Made by a program: the position numbers and the translations under genes. From Longicatena caecimuris (GTDB taxonomy: Bacteria > Bacillota_I > Bacilli_A > Erysipelotrichales > Erysipelotrichaceae), in assembly GCF_004341945.1 (NCBI RefSeq), contig NZ_SMBP01000004.1, positions 1 to 64,000 on the forward strand: 64,000 nucleotides of DNA, written 5' to 3'. Each line of letters starts with the position of its first letter. The first letter of the stretch is position 1. The notes below the pieces were generated by a model, which saw nothing but the letters and a program-made list of their open reading frames with translations, ran no database searches and was not told the origin of the DNA. Shown here piece by piece: positions 4,526-50,648 of the stretch.

Positions 4526-4675
4526 TAAAAAGCCTTCTCAAGCGTCAGAGAAGGCATACGTATCGATTCTTTCTTCTCTTATCGCTGTTAGCTGTACCAC
4601 CTTATATGATTTACCCCATACAGGTTGGTGTGGGATTATCGAGCTAACTCTCTACCCCAACTCTTGATAAAAAAG
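4526..4675 (-). ncRNA. SAM-I (S-box) riboswitch with terminator, metK leader
   Basis: Read on the minus strand, the leader has the S-box order of elements: TTATCAAGAG opening stem, AGAGAG...CTCGATAA kink-turn region, ACACCAACC, then AAGGTGGTACAGC and a closing GATAAGAG that pairs with the 5' TTATC. The loop TTAGCT can pair with the downstream AGCTAA, which matches the S-box pseudoknot. It is followed by a perfect GCCTTCTC / GAGAAGGC terminator hairpin (4532-4555) and U-run just before the metK ribosome site. Binding of SAM would favour the terminator. Some normally conserved bases differ (CCAACC for GCAACC), so this is a divergent member. Confidence 0.75.
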
Positions 4676-13279: not shown

Positions 13280-13577
13280 ATCCTCACCTCTTATTCATTC
13301 TTTTTTATTATACAATACTTTGATATGAATGAATATAGTTTCAGAAAAGAAATGTAAAGGAAATGAAGCGTTGACCCTCGATTCAGATACTATATCATAT
13401 CCTTTTATATGAATAGCCATCTAAGGTCCTACATCAGAAACCATCTAATTACCAATTATGCAAATGAAAGAAATCAATAATGCGTAGGAATGGCATAGTG
13501 AAGCCATGGTAAGATGCGATTGTTTTCATTGCGTTTACAAGAATTTGAAATTTCTTTCATTTTATGTATGGAATCGC

Positions 13578-13606
13578 TTGAAATTCTTTCTTGATTATAT
13601 TATGAT
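13578..13606 (+). promoter_or_regulatory. Promoter of the aro-tyrA operon
   Basis: TTGAAA (13578-13583), 17-base spacer, TATGAT (13601-13606). Transcription would start about 10 bases before the ribosome site of the leader peptide. The 260 bases between the pheA promoter and this one hold no gene that I can recognise. Confidence 0.65.
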
Positions 13607-13628
13607 ATAGGAAATTGGAGTGATAGCC

Positions 13629-13661
13629 ATGCATAACAAAGGATTTTATTATTATCTTTAA
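13629..13661 (+). CDS. Leader peptide MHNKGFYYYL of the aromatic operon
   Basis: A 10-codon reading frame with its own GGAG ribosome site (13617-13620) that ends in TAA. Four consecutive codons are Phe-Tyr-Tyr-Tyr, the products of the pathway encoded downstream. It sits between a good promoter and a hairpin-terminator pair. This is the layout of ribosome-mediated attenuation, as in the pheA and trp leaders of enteric bacteria. No alternative peptide frame with such bias is present. Confidence 0.75.
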   Translation: MHNKGFYYYL

Positions 13662-13665
13662 TCTT

Positions 13666-13747
13666 CGTTATAAAGCCAAACATGGTTCTTTTTCACTTCT
13701 TTATAACGGATAAAAAAAGCATCTGCAATTCACTGATGCTTTTTTTC
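13666..13747 (+). terminator. Attenuator hairpins between leader peptide and aroB
   Basis: A perfect 10-bp stem CGTTATAAAG / CTTTATAACG (13666-13675 with 13699-13708) begins five bases after the leader stop codon. Four bases further on comes a classic terminator, AAAAAAGCATC / GATGCTTTTTT (13713-13745). A ribosome sitting at the leader stop would cover the 5' arm of the first stem; one stalled at the tyrosine codons would leave it mostly free. The U-rich stretch in and after the leader can also pair weakly with the A-rich 5' arm of the terminator. Confidence 0.75.
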
Positions 13748-13767
13748 TTTATCAGGGAGGAATCGTT

Positions 13768-14769
13768 ATGAAACTACATGTAGATCTAAAAGAAAATGGA
13801 TACGATATTTATATGGAAAAAGGCATCTTATATCGCTTAAACGATCATATTCAACTGAATCGCAAGGTTATGATCATTACCGATACCGGTGTACCAAATT
13901 CCTATGCACAAACCGTTAAGGAACAATGTAAGGAAGGCTATGTACATGTTGTCGAAGCTGGTGAATCCAGTAAGAGCATGGAGGTCTTTCAACAACTGTG
14001 TGAGGATTTGCTGGAACATAATTTCTCACGTAAGGATTGTGTCATTGCGTTAGGTGGCGGGGTTGTAGGAGATTTATCCGGTTTTGTGGCAGCTAGCTAT
14101 ATGCGTGGTATTGACTTTATTCAGATACCGACCACTACGCTCTCACAAATCGACAGTAGTATCGGTGGTAAGGTTGCTATCAATCTGGATGATGTGAAAA
14201 ACATCGTTGGGGCCTTCTATCAGCCTAAAGCTGTCTTCATTGATACAGATACTTTATTAACACTGCCAAAACGGCATTTCTATAATGGTTTAGTAGAAGC
14301 ATTGAAAGCCGGATTGATCTATGATGAAAAACTATTTGCCCTTTTTGAGGAAGAAGATATTCCTGCTCATTTAGAAGAAATCATCTATCGTGCGTTATGT
14401 GTGAAAAAAGCAGTTGTGGAAACTGATGAAAAAGAGCTAGGATTACGCAAGATCTTAAACTTTGGTCATACCATCGGGCATGCCATTGAAAGCTATTATC
14501 ACCTTTCACAATATTTGCATGGAGAATGTGTTGCCATGGGCATGTTGTATTTTATGAGTGAAGATGTTCAAAAACGTGTCTTACCTATTTATAAACGGAT
14601 GCATTTACAAAGTGATGTACCTTATGATAGTGATGAAGTGTTTGAAATATTATGTAAAGATAAGAAAGCAAGCGGCGATCATGTCACCGTTGTTAAGGTC
14701 AATACGATTGGTAAAGCAGAATTAGAAGAATGGAAGTTAAGTGATGTTCGTCACATTTTGAAAGGATAA
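13768..14769 (+). CDS. aroB: 3-dehydroquinate synthase
   Basis: Second step of the shikimate pathway: DAHP to 3-dehydroquinate, NAD- and metal-dependent. The 333-residue protein has the NAD loop GGGVVGDLSGFVAA, the TTTLSQIDSSIGGK substrate segment, and the metal ligands in GLVEALKAG and LNFGHTIGHAIE. Slightly shorter than the usual 350-360. GGGAGG precedes the ATG, which lies about 20 bases after the attenuator U-run. First structural gene of the five-gene aro-tyrA operon, with only a four-base gap to aroC. Confidence 0.97.
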   Translation: MKLHVDLKENGYDIYMEKGILYRLNDHIQLNRKVMIITDTGVPNSYAQTVKEQCKEGYVHVVEAGESSKSMEVFQQLCEDLLEHNFSRKDCVIALGGGVVGDLSGFVAASYMRGIDFIQIPTTTLSQIDSSIGGKVAINLDDVKNIVGAFYQPKAVFIDTDTLLTLPKRHFYNGLVEALKAGLIYDEKLFALFEEEDIPAHLEEIIYRALCVKKAVVETDEKELGLRKILNFGHTIGHAIESYYHLSQYLHGECVAMGMLYFMSEDVQKRVLPIYKRMHLQSDVPYDSDEVFEILCKDKKASGDHVTVVKVNTIGKAELEEWKLSDVRHILKG

Positions 14770-14773
14770 GGTT

Positions 14774-15874
14774 ATGAAGAATACATTTGGAAATCAATTC
14801 AGTGTTACGATCTTTGGAGAAAGTCATGGCGAGGCAATCGGTGTCGTCATTGACGGTTTAGCTGCCGGCATTCATCTGGACATGGATTTTATCAATGCCA
14901 TGATGGATAAACGTAAGGCAAAAGGACGTATCAGCACACAGCGTAAAGAAAGTGATGCGTTGCATATCGTCAGTGGTTATTTTGAAGGCTATACTACCGG
15001 GACACCGTTAACCATTCTGATTGAAAACACCAATATGCGCAGTGGTGATTATACCAAAACCAAGAATCGCTTGCGTCCCTCACATGCCGATTATACCGCT
15101 GATGTAAAATATAGTGGTTATCAGGATTATCGCGGCGGCGGCCATTTCAGCGGGCGCATTACAGCACCCCTTGTGGCGGCAGGAGCAATTGCCATGCAGG
15201 TGTTACAACAAAAAGGCATTTTAATTGGTTCTCATATTGCCCAGTGTCATACCATCAAAGATCAGCCATTTGCCCAAGAGGAAGAACTCCTTGAACAACA
15301 GCTTCGACAAATGAATACCAGCGATCTTGCGGTATTAGATGAAACAGCAGCGCAAGCGATGCGTACACAAATAGAAGAAGCAGCGATGCAAGGAGATAGT
15401 GTAGGCGGTATCTTAGAAAGTGCTATTTTACATTTACCGGCTGGTATCGGAGAACCTTTCTTTGATTCCATGGAAAGTCGTTTAAGCCATTTATTATTCA
15501 GTGTACCGGCTGTAAAAGGTGTCGAATTTGGTTTGGGTTTTGCCTTTTGTGATCGTTATGGAAGTGAAGTCAATGATGCCATTATTTATGATGGCAAAGT
15601 AAAAACCAGAACCAATCATAACGGTGGTATTAACGGAGGTATCAGTAATGGTATGCCGGTACTAATCAAAACAGTTATTAAACCAACGCCATCTATTTAT
15701 AAGGAACAGGATACGATTGATAAGGAAACGCATGAAGCCGTGAAACTAACGATTCAGGGTAGACATGATCCTGCCATCATCCATCGCGCAAGAATCGTAG
15801 TCGATGCGGTTTTGGCTATCGGTATCTTAGATATGCTCATGGAGCGTAGCGCAACTATGGAAATGCAGAAATAA
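14774..15874 (+). CDS. aroC: Chorismate synthase
   Basis: Forms chorismate from EPSP using reduced FMN. The 366-residue sequence carries the family signatures GESHGEAIGVVIDG at the N-terminus, RPSHADYT, the glycine-rich GGGHFSGRITAPLVAAGA and, near the C-terminus, the conserved GRHDP. The gene follows aroB by four bases and precedes aroF by about 58 bases, so it belongs to the same transcript. Shikimate-pathway enzymes AroD, AroE and AroK are not encoded here and must lie elsewhere. Confidence 0.97.
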   Translation: MKNTFGNQFSVTIFGESHGEAIGVVIDGLAAGIHLDMDFINAMMDKRKAKGRISTQRKESDALHIVSGYFEGYTTGTPLTILIENTNMRSGDYTKTKNRLRPSHADYTADVKYSGYQDYRGGGHFSGRITAPLVAAGAIAMQVLQQKGILIGSHIAQCHTIKDQPFAQEEELLEQQLRQMNTSDLAVLDETAAQAMRTQIEEAAMQGDSVGGILESAILHLPAGIGEPFFDSMESRLSHLLFSVPAVKGVEFGLGFAFCDRYGSEVNDAIIYDGKVKTRTNHNGGINGGISNGMPVLIKTVIKPTPSIYKEQDTIDKETHEAVKLTIQGRHDPAIIHRARIVVDAVLAIGILDMLMERSATMEMQK

Positions 15875-15932: not shown

Positions 15933-16949
15933 ATGATTATTACGATGAAGAAAGATGCAACAACAAGTGATATTGAACATGTTATGAAGCAATTAAAGGA
16001 GCGCGGCTTACAAATACATGAGAGCATTGGTGAGAATTTCAATGTCTTTGGAGTCGTAGGCGATACCAGTCAAATTGATCCTAAGCGCATTGAGGCAAAC
16101 CCTCATGTGGAAAGTGTTGTGCGTGTATCATCCCCATATAAAAAAGCAAGTCGTATGTTTCATCCAGAAGATACGATTGTCGAAGTCAATGGTATCCGCA
16201 TTGGCGGTAACGAAAAACTAGTTGTTATTGGCGGTCCTTGCAGCGTAGAAGGAAAAGAGATGATCGTGCATCTGGCTCAAGAAGTAAAGGATGCCGGTGG
16301 CTGTATGCTAAGAGGTGGCGCTTATAAACCGAGAACCTCTCCATATGCTTTTCAGGGCATGGGAACAGAAGGTATCCTTGCTTTAGCACAAGCAAGAAAA
16401 CAAAGTGGCTTACCGATTGTCACAGAATTGATGAGTGCTGATAAACTTGATGAATTTGTGGAACATGTCGATATCATTCAGATTGGGGCCCGTAATATGC
16501 AAAACTTTGATTTGTTAAAAGCGGTAGGAAAGACACAAAAACCAATCTTACTAAAACGTGGTTTGGCCAATACGATAGAAGAATGGATCATGAGTGCAGA
16601 ATATATTCTTTCTGAAGGAAATCCAAATGTCATTCTTTGTGAACGAGGCATTCGTACCTTTGAGCCATACACCCGAAATACCTTAGATCTTAGTGTCATT
16701 CCAATCATCAAGAAGAAGACCCATTTGCCTATCATCATTGATCCAAGTCATGCGACCGGTGATTGGGAACTGGTGGAAGCCGCATCTTTAGCTGCGATTG
16801 CGGCAGGTGCAGATGGTCTAATCATTGAAGTCCATGATCATCCGGAATGTGCATGGAGCGATGGTGCACAATCCTTAAAACCGGAAAACTTTAAGCAGTT
16901 GATTCAAAAAGGGAAAGCGATTGCGAATGTCATTGGGAGGGATATGTAA
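15933..16949 (+). CDS. aroF: DAHP synthase, type I-beta with ferredoxin-like regulatory domain
   Basis: First committed step of aromatic synthesis: phosphoenolpyruvate plus erythrose 4-phosphate to DAHP. The 338 residues comprise an N-terminal ferredoxin-like domain (1-70, MIITMKKDATTSDIEHVMK), which in the Thermotoga-type enzymes mediates feedback by tyrosine or phenylalanine, and a TIM-barrel catalytic domain with VIGGPCSVEGKE, LRGGAYKPRTSPY and IIDPSHATG. The start is ATG 15933, after GGAGG; an in-frame ATG at 15885 lacks a ribosome site and lengthens the protein beyond the family. It ends by overlapping the aroA ATG by one base. Confidence 0.95.
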   Translation: MIITMKKDATTSDIEHVMKQLKERGLQIHESIGENFNVFGVVGDTSQIDPKRIEANPHVESVVRVSSPYKKASRMFHPEDTIVEVNGIRIGGNEKLVVIGGPCSVEGKEMIVHLAQEVKDAGGCMLRGGAYKPRTSPYAFQGMGTEGILALAQARKQSGLPIVTELMSADKLDEFVEHVDIIQIGARNMQNFDLLKAVGKTQKPILLKRGLANTIEEWIMSAEYILSEGNPNVILCERGIRTFEPYTRNTLDLSVIPIIKKKTHLPIIIDPSHATGDWELVEAASLAAIAAGADGLIIEVHDHPECAWSDGAQSLKPENFKQLIQKGKAIANVIGRDM

Positions 16950-18214
16950 TGAAAGTTACCATAGCTCCCTCTTTAGGTAAAGGTCATGTGCATATTCCCC
17001 CAAGCAAATCCATGGCACATCGTGCAATTATCTGTGCTTCTCTTGCGAAGGGAAGAAGTGTCATATCCAATGTTGCCTATTCCAAAGATATACGTGCAAC
17101 GATAGAAGGAATGAAACAGCTTGGCGCACATATTGAAATAGCGGAAGATACTGTCACTATTGATGGTATAGCAAACTTTCAAGGTTTAAAAGACAAGGAA
17201 ATTTTTTGTAATGAATCTGGTTCTACCTTGCGTTTCTTTATTCCTATTTTCTCTCTTTGTGAAAAACCAATCACCTTTACTGGCAGCGGACGATTATTAC
17301 AAAGACCGCAAAAAGTATATGAAGACATCTTTCATGAAAATGGATTAGCCTTTCAGCAAGATGCCCATGGTATCCACATTCAGGAGGCACTGCCTTATGG
17401 AGAATATCAGATCAAAGGTGATGTCAGTTCACAATTCATCAGTGGTTTATTGTTTACCCTACCACTGTTAGAAAAGGACTCTACAATTCATATTCTTCCT
17501 CCCTTTGAATCCCGTTCTTATGTGGAACTGACCTTACAAATGCTGGAACATTTCGGTGTCCATGCTTATTTTAAAGATGAAATGACACTTGCTATTCCGG
17601 GTGGACAAACCTATCAAGCAAATAATTATGAGATTGAAGGCGATTATTCACAATTAGCTTTCTTTGCGGTATATGCTGCGATTCATGGAAAGATTACCGT
17701 GACCGGTGTTTCTCATGCATCAAGACAGGGTGATAAAGCGATTTTGGAAATCTTAAAAAGCTTTGGGGCATGCATAGAAGAAGTACCCCATGGCTATACC
17801 TTTTATAAAAGTGAATTAAAGGGCACCTCCATTGATTTAGCAAACTGTCCGGATCTAGGACCTATTCTTTGTGTGCTTGGCATGTATTCCCTGGGAAATA
17901 CGCATATTTACAATGCCGGCAGATTGCGCATTAAAGAAAGTGATCGCATTGCGGCAATGGAAGAAGAACTGCGCAAGTTTGGCGTTACCATAACCTCTAC
18001 AGAAGATGAAATCTTCATTCAAGGCGGGCAAGACTATACATGCAAACAGACATTGCATGGACATAATGATCATCGCATTGTGATGGCCTTAAGTGTTGCC
18101 ACAGCTTGCAGTAATTCCTGTACAACCATAGAGGATGCACAGGCGATTACCAAGAGCTATCCTACCTTCTTTGATGATTTTGCGAAGGTGCAAGGAAAGG
18201 TGGAAAGCTTATGA
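16949..18214 (+). CDS. aroA: EPSP synthase (3-phosphoshikimate 1-carboxyvinyltransferase)
   Basis: Joins shikimate 3-phosphate and phosphoenolpyruvate, the glyphosate-target step. The 421 residues have PPSKSMAHRAIICASLAKG near the N-terminus, NESGSTLRFFIPI (the NxGT-type PEP loop here reads NESGST), SSQFISGLL and NDHRIVMALSVA. The NESGST loop in place of LGNAGT is typical of class II-like or divergent Gram-positive enzymes, which are often less glyphosate-sensitive; that last point is an inference. The start overlaps the aroF stop, and the end overlaps tyrA by four bases. Confidence 0.96.
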   Translation: MKVTIAPSLGKGHVHIPPSKSMAHRAIICASLAKGRSVISNVAYSKDIRATIEGMKQLGAHIEIAEDTVTIDGIANFQGLKDKEIFCNESGSTLRFFIPIFSLCEKPITFTGSGRLLQRPQKVYEDIFHENGLAFQQDAHGIHIQEALPYGEYQIKGDVSSQFISGLLFTLPLLEKDSTIHILPPFESRSYVELTLQMLEHFGVHAYFKDEMTLAIPGGQTYQANNYEIEGDYSQLAFFAVYAAIHGKITVTGVSHASRQGDKAILEILKSFGACIEEVPHGYTFYKSELKGTSIDLANCPDLGPILCVLGMYSLGNTHIYNAGRLRIKESDRIAAMEEELRKFGVTITSTEDEIFIQGGQDYTCKQTLHGHNDHRIVMALSVATACSNSCTTIEDAQAITKSYPTFFDDFAKVQGKVESL

Positions 18215-19059
18215 TAAAAAAAGATACCCGCTTTTTAATTGTTGGACTTGGTTTGATTGGTGGCAGCTATGCCATGGGATTAAAACGCAATGGATTTCAT
18301 GTGGATGCCATTGACATTAACCAGTTAAGCATTGATTATGCCAAGGAACATGACATCATTGATGAAGGAAGTACTTTTGCTATTGAACTGATTCAAAACG
18401 CTGATTTCATCATTTCCGGATTGTATCCCAACATGACGGTGGAGTGGTATGCAACGTATCAAAAATATATGAAGCCCCATGCTTTTCTGACAGATGTAAG
18501 TGGTGTAAAACGCAATATTGTAGAACGTATCCAAAGTATTTTGCGTGAGGATCTAGAATTTTGCGCCTCTCATCCAATGGCAGGGAAAGAAGTCAGCGGT
18601 GTGAAATATGCGGATGATGCTATTTTCCATATTGCTAATTTCATTATCACCCCAACTGCCAAAAACACCCAGACAGCCATAGCTACCTTAAAAGAATTTG
18701 CCAGTATTTTAGGCTTTACGAATATTTCCATATTAACACCGGAAGAACATGATGAAATGGTCGGCTTTGTCTCACAATTGACGCATGTGATTGCCGTATC
18801 GCTAATGAATACCAACGATAATACACATTTGGTGGAATATACCGGAGATAGTTTCCGTGATTTAACAAGAATTGCCAAGATCAATGAAAATCTTTGGAGT
18901 GAATTGTTTTTCTTAAATAAAGATAATTTAATTCGCGAAATCGATGACTTCGTGAAGGAAATCAATCATTTAAAGACAAAGTTGGAACAGGATGATGTTG
19001 AAGGATTAAAAGAATTATTCATTCAATCCACCATTCGTCGTAAACGCTTTGATCGATAA
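18211..19059 (+). CDS. tyrA: Prephenate dehydrogenase
   Basis: Oxidises prephenate to 4-hydroxyphenylpyruvate, the tyrosine branch. The 282-residue protein starts with a Rossmann loop VGLGLIGGSYAMGLKRNG and has the SHPMAGKEVSG substrate motif and the helical dimerisation region. There is no C-terminal ACT domain, unlike the Bacillus enzyme, so feedback by tyrosine is not expected here and may rest with the DAHP synthase and the FYYY attenuator. Translationally coupled to aroA (ATGA) and last in the operon. Confidence 0.95.
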   Translation: MIKKDTRFLIVGLGLIGGSYAMGLKRNGFHVDAIDINQLSIDYAKEHDIIDEGSTFAIELIQNADFIISGLYPNMTVEWYATYQKYMKPHAFLTDVSGVKRNIVERIQSILREDLEFCASHPMAGKEVSGVKYADDAIFHIANFIITPTAKNTQTAIATLKEFASILGFTNISILTPEEHDEMVGFVSQLTHVIAVSLMNTNDNTHLVEYTGDSFRDLTRIAKINENLWSELFFLNKDNLIREIDDFVKEINHLKTKLEQDDVEGLKELFIQSTIRRKRFDR

Positions 19060-48292: not shown

Positions 48293-48322
48293 GATTATCA
48301 CCTTCATTTCGGTATAATAAAA

Positions 48323-48401
48323 GCTACTACACATGATAGAGCTCCCTTAAGGCTGCTTTGTTCCCAATCTGACCTGATTCAGTAGATACCATTGTAGTAG
48401 C
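48323..48401 (-). ncRNA. ffs: Signal recognition particle RNA, small bacterial type
   Basis: A 79-base RNA closed by GCTACTACA / TGTAGTAGC. It contains the conserved apical domain: AGGTCAG, then GGGAAC, then AAAGCAGCC, which corresponds to the GGAA tetraloop and the asymmetric loop that binds Ffh. A U-run follows the closing stem. TATAAT (48413-48408) is positioned seven bases before the first base, with TTGCAT 16 bases further up. It is the short 4.5S-like form without an Alu domain. Confidence 0.88.
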
Positions 48402-48436
48402 TTATATATTATAACATATATTCATTTGAATGCAAT

Positions 48437-50408: not shown

Positions 50409-50643
50409 TACAAATAAAAAAGAGGTATTGTCCGAAAGGGACGATACCTCGTGTTGCCACCCTTTTTTAATTCATAGCATCACACTATGAATCCTCTCAA
50501 GTGATAACGGTACTACCGGAAGTAACTACTTTATTCACTACTTCACTCCAAGGTTGATTTCATAAAGCTTTGACAATAACTCACACCAGCCGTTATCTCT
50601 CTTTGCTCAAAGACTCTATTACTTATCCTTATCGACGTTTTCT
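50409..50643 (-). ncRNA. T-box leader of serS, specifier UCA
   Basis: On the minus strand the leader holds the AG-rich bulge and GGTG distal loop of stem I, the specifier context GAAATCAACC with TCA (50557-50555), a stem III (ATTCATAG / CTATGAAT) and the T-box core AGGGTGGCAACACG. A terminator GAGGTATTGTCC / GGACGATACCTC with a U-run follows (50415-50450). Uncharged tRNA-Ser (UGA anticodon) would favour read-through. Confidence 0.88.
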
Positions 50644-50648
50644 TATTT

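Follow-up and report, generated by a model that had tools for sequence, protein, structure and literature searches.

We report that the aroBCFA-tyrA operon of Longicatena caecimuris, located in the 64,000-nucleotide stretch of DNA analysed here (the window), is likely controlled by a transcription attenuator of the ribosome-mediated type, responsive to charged tRNA-Tyr and also tRNA-Phe, and that this attenuator likely is part of a leader-peptide regulon. Judged from the sequences, ribosome-stalling control of the aroB operon appears well supported: a short, translated-looking open reading frame (ORF) in which the regulatory codons form a run precedes the operon, and an intrinsic terminator lies between this leader and the first gene. 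An antiterminator mutually exclusive with the terminator is present in one group of relatives (group 2) and was not found in the group to which the window's leader belongs (group 1). We infer the sensing of tRNA charging and the induction upon starvation from established attenuation. More tentatively, leaders of the window's type may relay stalling to the terminator without an overlapping antiterminator, through a pause-bearing hairpin after the stop codon that would act on RNA polymerase, and may in this way run the aromatic regulon, comprising aroB, aroE and aroF operons, in much of the Erysipelotrichaceae alongside many T-boxes.

Our data suggest that the aromatic pathway of a T-box-rich Firmicute lineage is served by translated leader peptides, in front of several operons and in two RNA architectures. 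Specifically, group 1 has a strongly selected hairpin and a pause signal with no antiterminator seen, and this design therefore offers a direct way to test whether a stalled ribosome can govern a distant intrinsic terminator.

Leader region, operon and conservation among relatives

The promoter, the GGAG site, the ten-codon frame MHNKGFYYYL, the 10-bp stem and the terminator named in the original prediction are all present in the sequence (Table 1), and its gene names, aroB-aroC-aroF-aroA-tyrA, agree with the NCBIfam matches. Transcription of the aroB leader RNA is expected to start near position 13613; promoter matches occur at chance level (4 found vs 4.5 expected), and several relatives have a TATTATGATA-like -10 box with the same spacing. 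The stem (A:B) is perfect, begins at the fifth base past the leader stop and encloses a short inner hairpin, CCA-aaca-UGG, and the run TTCTTTTT. The terminator starts a few nucleotides after the end of A:B, approximately 50 nt past the leader stop; the two structures fold together without overlap, and A:B is not an alternative to the terminator. Among the group-1 leaders the terminator stem GCATC/GATGC is mostly kept. AGCATC/GATGCT was considered as an aro-specific terminator and rejected, as four more copies in the genome are located inside genes or close to ordinary gene ends.

The host genome is 2.95 Mb, and the closest relatives of its AroB in the named collection are from Longicatena and Amedibacillus (66% identity). 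The divergent neighbour of the aro operon is pheA (chorismate mutase-prephenate dehydratase) together with an aminotransferase gene, and reading the sequence by eye we saw no leader comparable to that of aroB 5' of pheA. A perfect 13-bp inverted repeat, AAATGAAAGAAAT (13462-13474) and ATTTCTTTCATTT (13550-13562) with the arms approximately 75 nt apart, is located between pheA and the aro promoter and is a possible regulatory site.

Table 1. Features of the aroB leader and operon; positions are those of the window.
Feature	Position	Strand	Basis
Promoter TTGAAA-17-TATGAT (-35 13578-13583, -10 13601-13606)	13578..13606	+	sequence
GGAG Shine-Dalgarno (SD) of the leader ORF	13617..13620	+	sequence; conserved in group-1a relatives
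Leader ORF MHNKGFYYYL (ATG 13629, stop TAA 13659-13661)	13629..13661	+	aromatic run one codon before stop
Arm A of stem A:B, CGTTATAAAG	13666..13675	+	covariation (alignment A1); species-swap scan (z about -6)
Inner (predicted pause) hairpin inside A:B	13676..13685	+	conserved in sequence, not covarying
Segment able to pair with leader SD and start codon (13617-13631)	13681..13699	+	minimum free energy fold of naked leader
TTCTTT, match to NusG pause motif TTNTTT	13686..13691	+	directly after hairpin end 13685
Arm B of stem A:B, CTTTATAACG	13699..13708	+	covariation; species-swap scan
Intrinsic terminator, AAAAAAAGCATC (13712-13723) / GATGCTTTTTTT (13735-13746)	13712..13746	+	sequence, covariation
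aroB, 3-dehydroquinate synthase (ATG at 13768)	13768..14769	+	NCBIfam TIGR01357 above cut-off
aroC, chorismate synthase	14774..15874	+	NCBIfam
aroF, DAHP synthase	15933..16949	+	NCBIfam TIGR01361 above cut-off
aroA, EPSP synthase	16949..18214	+	NCBIfam TIGR01356 above cut-off
tyrA, prephenate dehydrogenase family	18211..19059	+	NCBIfam prephenate dehydrogenase models, below equivalog cut-offs

Since Tyr and Phe codons are frequent in AT-rich DNA, the occurrence of aromatic leaders was compared with that in shuffled sequences. The upstream regions of 87 aroB genes, mostly from Erysipelotrichaceae genomes, were searched for ORFs of 6-32 codons that end 60-180 nt 5' of aroB and have Tyr or Phe at ≥4 of the last seven residues. 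Such ORFs are present in 41 of the 87 regions, compared with a mean of 2.8 (maximum 6) in dinucleotide shuffles of the same regions and none on the reverse strand. The encoded peptides include MLFNRYYYS, MHNKGYYYYR, MSKPFSYYYFQ, MRNNAYFYYYE, MHTSKFYYFYYE and MNTNLFSYFYFYF. The 38 group-1 leaders together encode 103 Tyr, 76 Phe and no Trp residues, and in 35 of them the last aromatic codon is positioned exactly one codon from the stop.

Alignment of the relatives, the check that the original prediction had asked for, showed that the Tyr/Phe run and both stems are kept with compensatory changes; a Tyr/Phe leader peptide in an attenuator-like layout 5' of the operon is thus conserved, as had been proposed. 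In alignment A1, which comprises 11 aroB leaders of the same kind as that of the window, 93.6% of the cells in A:B, inner hairpin and terminator are paired, and the covariation score is 0.335 vs 0.169 for shuffled alignments and <0.10 when the structure is slid. Changes on both sides occur in 7/9 pairs of A:B and in 9/20 pairs of A:B and the terminator combined, where the aligned sequences are related and the counts do not equal independent events; group assignments and terminators were partly set by hand.

That the leader is a short AT-rich ORF lying by chance before a normal terminator, without any regulation, is highly improbable. The leader and the Tyr and Phe codons are indeed AT-rich, and the leader is absent from approximately half of the aroB upstream regions sampled, but the excess over the shuffles, the covarying stems and the recurrence in front of aroE, aroF and a transporter gene (see below) argue against it. 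In the close relative L084 (G086:C135), with an AroB that is 70% identical, neither leader ORF nor terminator was seen 5' of aroB, and the switch can therefore be lost; in L083 the aromatic run is diluted (MSVKRFYYNLNFSL). Both cases speak against the proposed attenuation.

Two leader architectures

Leaders of group 2 (e.g. L112, L135 and L144) have the textbook set of helices, 1:2, 2:3, 3:4 and the terminator. Directly after the stop, GGGC pairs with GCCC in helix 1:2, segment 2 can alternatively pair with segment 3 (e.g. AGATAATTGCC with GGCATTATCT), and segment 3 is able to pair with the 5' arm and loop of the terminator. Covariation supports helix 2:3 and the terminator (92% of the cells paired, score 0.369 vs 0.196). 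We also used a species-swap scan, in which each species' own segments are compared with segments swapped in from other species and the helices are not chosen beforehand; for group 2 this gave z-values of -6.3 for the terminator, -3.8 for 3:4, -3.4 for 1:2 and -3.3 for 2:3. Moreover, transcripts were folded as truncated RNAs that end before the 3' arm of the terminator (T3), and the engagement of the 5' arm (T5) with upstream sequence was recorded. In group 2, T5 is engaged upstream at 0.52 when the ribosome sits on the aromatic codons and at 0.24 when it has reached the stop, and the modelled change runs in the direction expected of a classical attenuator. At group-2 loci such as L096, L112 and L135 the GCCC hairpin is followed by RUUUUG, often with UG approximately 10-11 nt past the hairpin, a sequence arrangement resembling a his-type hairpin pause.

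The scan of group 1 gave a z-value of about -6 for A:B, and nothing comparable for pairing with the terminator arms. In targeted tests the complementarity between arm B and T5 was at chance level among the group-1 leaders (mean z 0.1 to 0.2). When the full window leader, T3 included, was folded, the terminator probability was 1.0 in every ribosome state, and in the truncated window transcript T5 was engaged at 0.00-0.06 with the ribosome stalled on the aromatic codons and at 0.40 with the ribosome at the stop, i.e. with a sign opposite to that of group 2. On the basis of the scan, the T5 tests and the folding, a classical antiterminator was therefore tested for and not found in the window leader, and one that includes a terminator arm was found in none of the group-1 leaders.

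Other pairings were considered and rejected. Pairing between the A:B loop (AUG-GUU-CUUUUU) and the 5' arm of the terminator, AAAAAGCAU, is lost in L083 and does not exceed chance, and pairing of arm B with the Shine-Dalgarno sequence of aroB is present in the window and in L083, yet its mean z is -0.4 to -0.6. In subgroup 1b the early leader codons pair with T3 (mean z -1.7; -11 to -16 kcal/mol in four leaders). We do not regard this pairing as a starvation antiterminator, because a stalled ribosome would, from its footprint, mask the early codons; the pairing is also absent in the window's subgroup.

Possible routes from a stalled ribosome to the terminator

The inner hairpin and the sequence that follows it match the consensus (TTNTTT) and the spacing of the NusG pause motif in B. 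subtilis (PMC12288461). In the window the 3' end of the paused RNA is predicted to fall at 13696, which puts the hairpin end at -12 and the pause immediately ahead of the synthesis of arm B. TTNTTT occurs after the leader stop in 19 of the 22 group-1 aroB leaders (8.0 expected), often starting at the base right after the inner hairpin, and is weaker in the aroE and aroF leaders (8/16 vs 4.8 expected). The genome's own NusG contains ...VRNTPGV..., with NT residues as in pro-pausing NusG; these probably correspond to N81/T82 of B. subtilis NusG.

In the mechanism that we propose, RNA polymerase would pause near the predicted site before arm B is synthesized, which would give a ribosome time to load and to translate all ten codons. 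If the tRNA is charged, the ribosome would complete the leader and depart, and the terminator would end transcription. With uncharged tRNA-Tyr it would be held on codons 7-9, and transcription would proceed into aroB. The step that connects the stall to the terminator would in the group-2 relatives be a classical antiterminator; in the window's group no base pairing that would represent this step can be seen.

For the window's group, it is conceivable, although we lean against it, that the stalled ribosome masks arm A and frees arm B for T5, with A:B acting as a protector that permits the terminator to form without a ribosome. A:B sits slightly downstream of the position of the leader-end stem A':3 in group 2, and the aromatic codons abut arm A, so that in many leaders a ribosome on the last of them covers the GC-rich base of arm A; when a footprint of 15 nt was placed on that codon in the window, A:B was largely lost and T5 engagement rose to 0.35. 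However, B:T5 pairing, apart from being at chance level, is weaker than the terminator, and stalls on the earlier aromatic codons leave arm A free. We see as somewhat unlikely the reading that A:B, together with the pause hairpin and U-rich stretch that it encloses, has RNA polymerase as its direct target, through a longer pause or put-like antitermination, such that A:B forming behind a stalled ribosome lets the polymerase pass the terminator. A:B is the sole strongly covarying downstream helix in group 1, the inner hairpin and the UUNUUUU sequence are conserved, A:B forms in the stalled state and TTNTTT comes directly after the hairpin; the effect of such an RNA on termination is however hypothetical, and the motif is, as stated, weaker in the aroE and aroF leaders.

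The naked leader RNA folds more than expected by chance (z -2.7). Its SD and start codon can pair with the A:B loop (mean z -2.3 for the first 11 group-1 leaders, which belong to the window's subgroup), with compensating changes in L004, L008, L026 and L085, and this pairing could limit translation of the leader to the first ribosome. That the leader mainly limits its own translation, with initiation blocked by SD/start:loop pairing in subgroup 1a or by the pairing of early codons with T3 in subgroup 1b and with a minor role for sensing, would be in keeping with these z-values. We nevertheless consider it improbable; it leaves the placement of the aromatic codons one codon before the stop unexplained, and SD:loop pairing is not seen in the aroE and aroF leaders (mean z -0.25). 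In L146, L147, L148, L106 and L109, and likewise in L014, L102, L114, L138 and L153, a -10-like box ends approximately six bases 5' of the leader ATG and no SD is evident, as if several of the subgroup-1b leader peptides were translated from leaderless RNA.

Known leader systems and the aromatic regulon

Leader-peptide attenuation is already known, also in Firmicutes, and the Erysipelotrichales have it for His; among aromatic cases uORFC-13-1 comes closest. The earlier view that a leader-peptide switch for a whole shikimate-tyrosine operon would be unusual in a Firmicute needs qualification: such attenuators are uncommon there, but published cases exist. His leaders are described from Bacillus (PMC2965389) and from six species of Erysipelotrichales (PMC9413887), a Leu leader peptide from S. 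aureus (PMC5794164) and a Phe uORF (uORFC-13-1) before aroF from Acholeplasma (PMC8632094). The Erysipelotrichales His attenuators share the order and the combination of a leader peptide with terminator and antiterminator hairpins; they differ in having His codons and in preceding his operons, and their description covers his genes alone. Compared by description, uORFC-13-1 resembles our leaders in that its uORF contains Phe codon(s) and that an additional stem and a terminator precede a DAHP synthase gene, whereas it is an Acholeplasma motif of a single gene, and the Tyr run, the aroB, aroE and transporter contexts and the two architectures are not described there. No family of the uORFC-13-1 type was among the Rfam matches at the aroB leader. 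In the literature searched, which covered few subscription papers, no description of an aromatic regulon in Erysipelotrichaceae was found.

Like E. coli pheL, trpL and hisL, the window's leader encodes a peptide rich in the regulatory residue, followed by a pause-type hairpin and a terminator before the first gene, and the group-2 relatives share the full set of alternative helices with these systems. In contrast to them, the post-stop stem of the window's group does not overlap the terminator and an antiterminator was not found, the genes controlled are those for shikimate and tyrosine, and in some relatives the RNA looks leaderless at the start codon of the leader ORF. B. subtilis tlrB (PMC6851288) likewise combines a Firmicute leader peptide, a NusG-type pause and an intrinsic terminator with no identified overlapping antiterminator. 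The arrest at tlrB is, however, antibiotic-induced, its pause hairpin forms the top of the terminator hairpin and not of a separate stem as here, and a ribosome near its stop can interfere directly with the terminator hairpin, whereas the aroB terminator begins about 50 nt past the leader stop.

T-box leaders also sense uncharged tRNA 5' of amino acid genes, and the window's leader would do so via a translated ORF. T-box control of the aroB locus was rejected for lack of an Rfam match to RF00230 at 13300-13800, T-boxes being detected elsewhere in the genome. The Rfam Phe_leader (RF01859) scored 20.2 bits vs a gathering cut-off of 55, and all known Rfam leaders at the locus were sub-threshold and rejected.

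A covariance model (R1) was built from aroB leaders only; E-values of the covariance models are rough. The genome that holds the window has one further convincing match to R1 (G000:C1:199917-200065, 62.8 bits; L198, L243), with the leader MHTTTYETFYFYFR and the same stem, hairpin and terminator, in front of a fused shikimate dehydrogenase/shikimate kinase gene (aroE-aroK) and a second DAHP synthase gene (aroF2). The R1 matches in relatives also precede aroE or aroF, with leaders such as MHLATSSVFYFYFQ, MKLHHSFFYYFTFR and MLKFNLNHSYYYYYR, and for A:B in 16 extra leaders, 15 of them before aroE or aroF, the mean z is -2.9. The group-2 model gave a weak match (E 0.001) before a gene for an ABC transporter substrate-binding protein (PF04392) at locus L242 (G045:C91:1500-3200, minus strand), and its leader, MKKDKLAIKTFSANYYYFYYS, suggests that the regulon includes uptake. 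Among 315 genomes of the order all leader matches, except one marginal, are within Erysipelotrichaceae; the sequence matches thus point to a multi-operon aromatic leader-peptide regulon that is nearly confined to this family.

Finally, the T-box covariance model has 21 matches in the same genome, and T-boxes therefore appear to be widely used for other genes. Within the window, Rfam detects a T-box leader at 50434-50644, a SAM riboswitch at 4576-4673 and a small SRP RNA at 48313-48408 on the minus strand.
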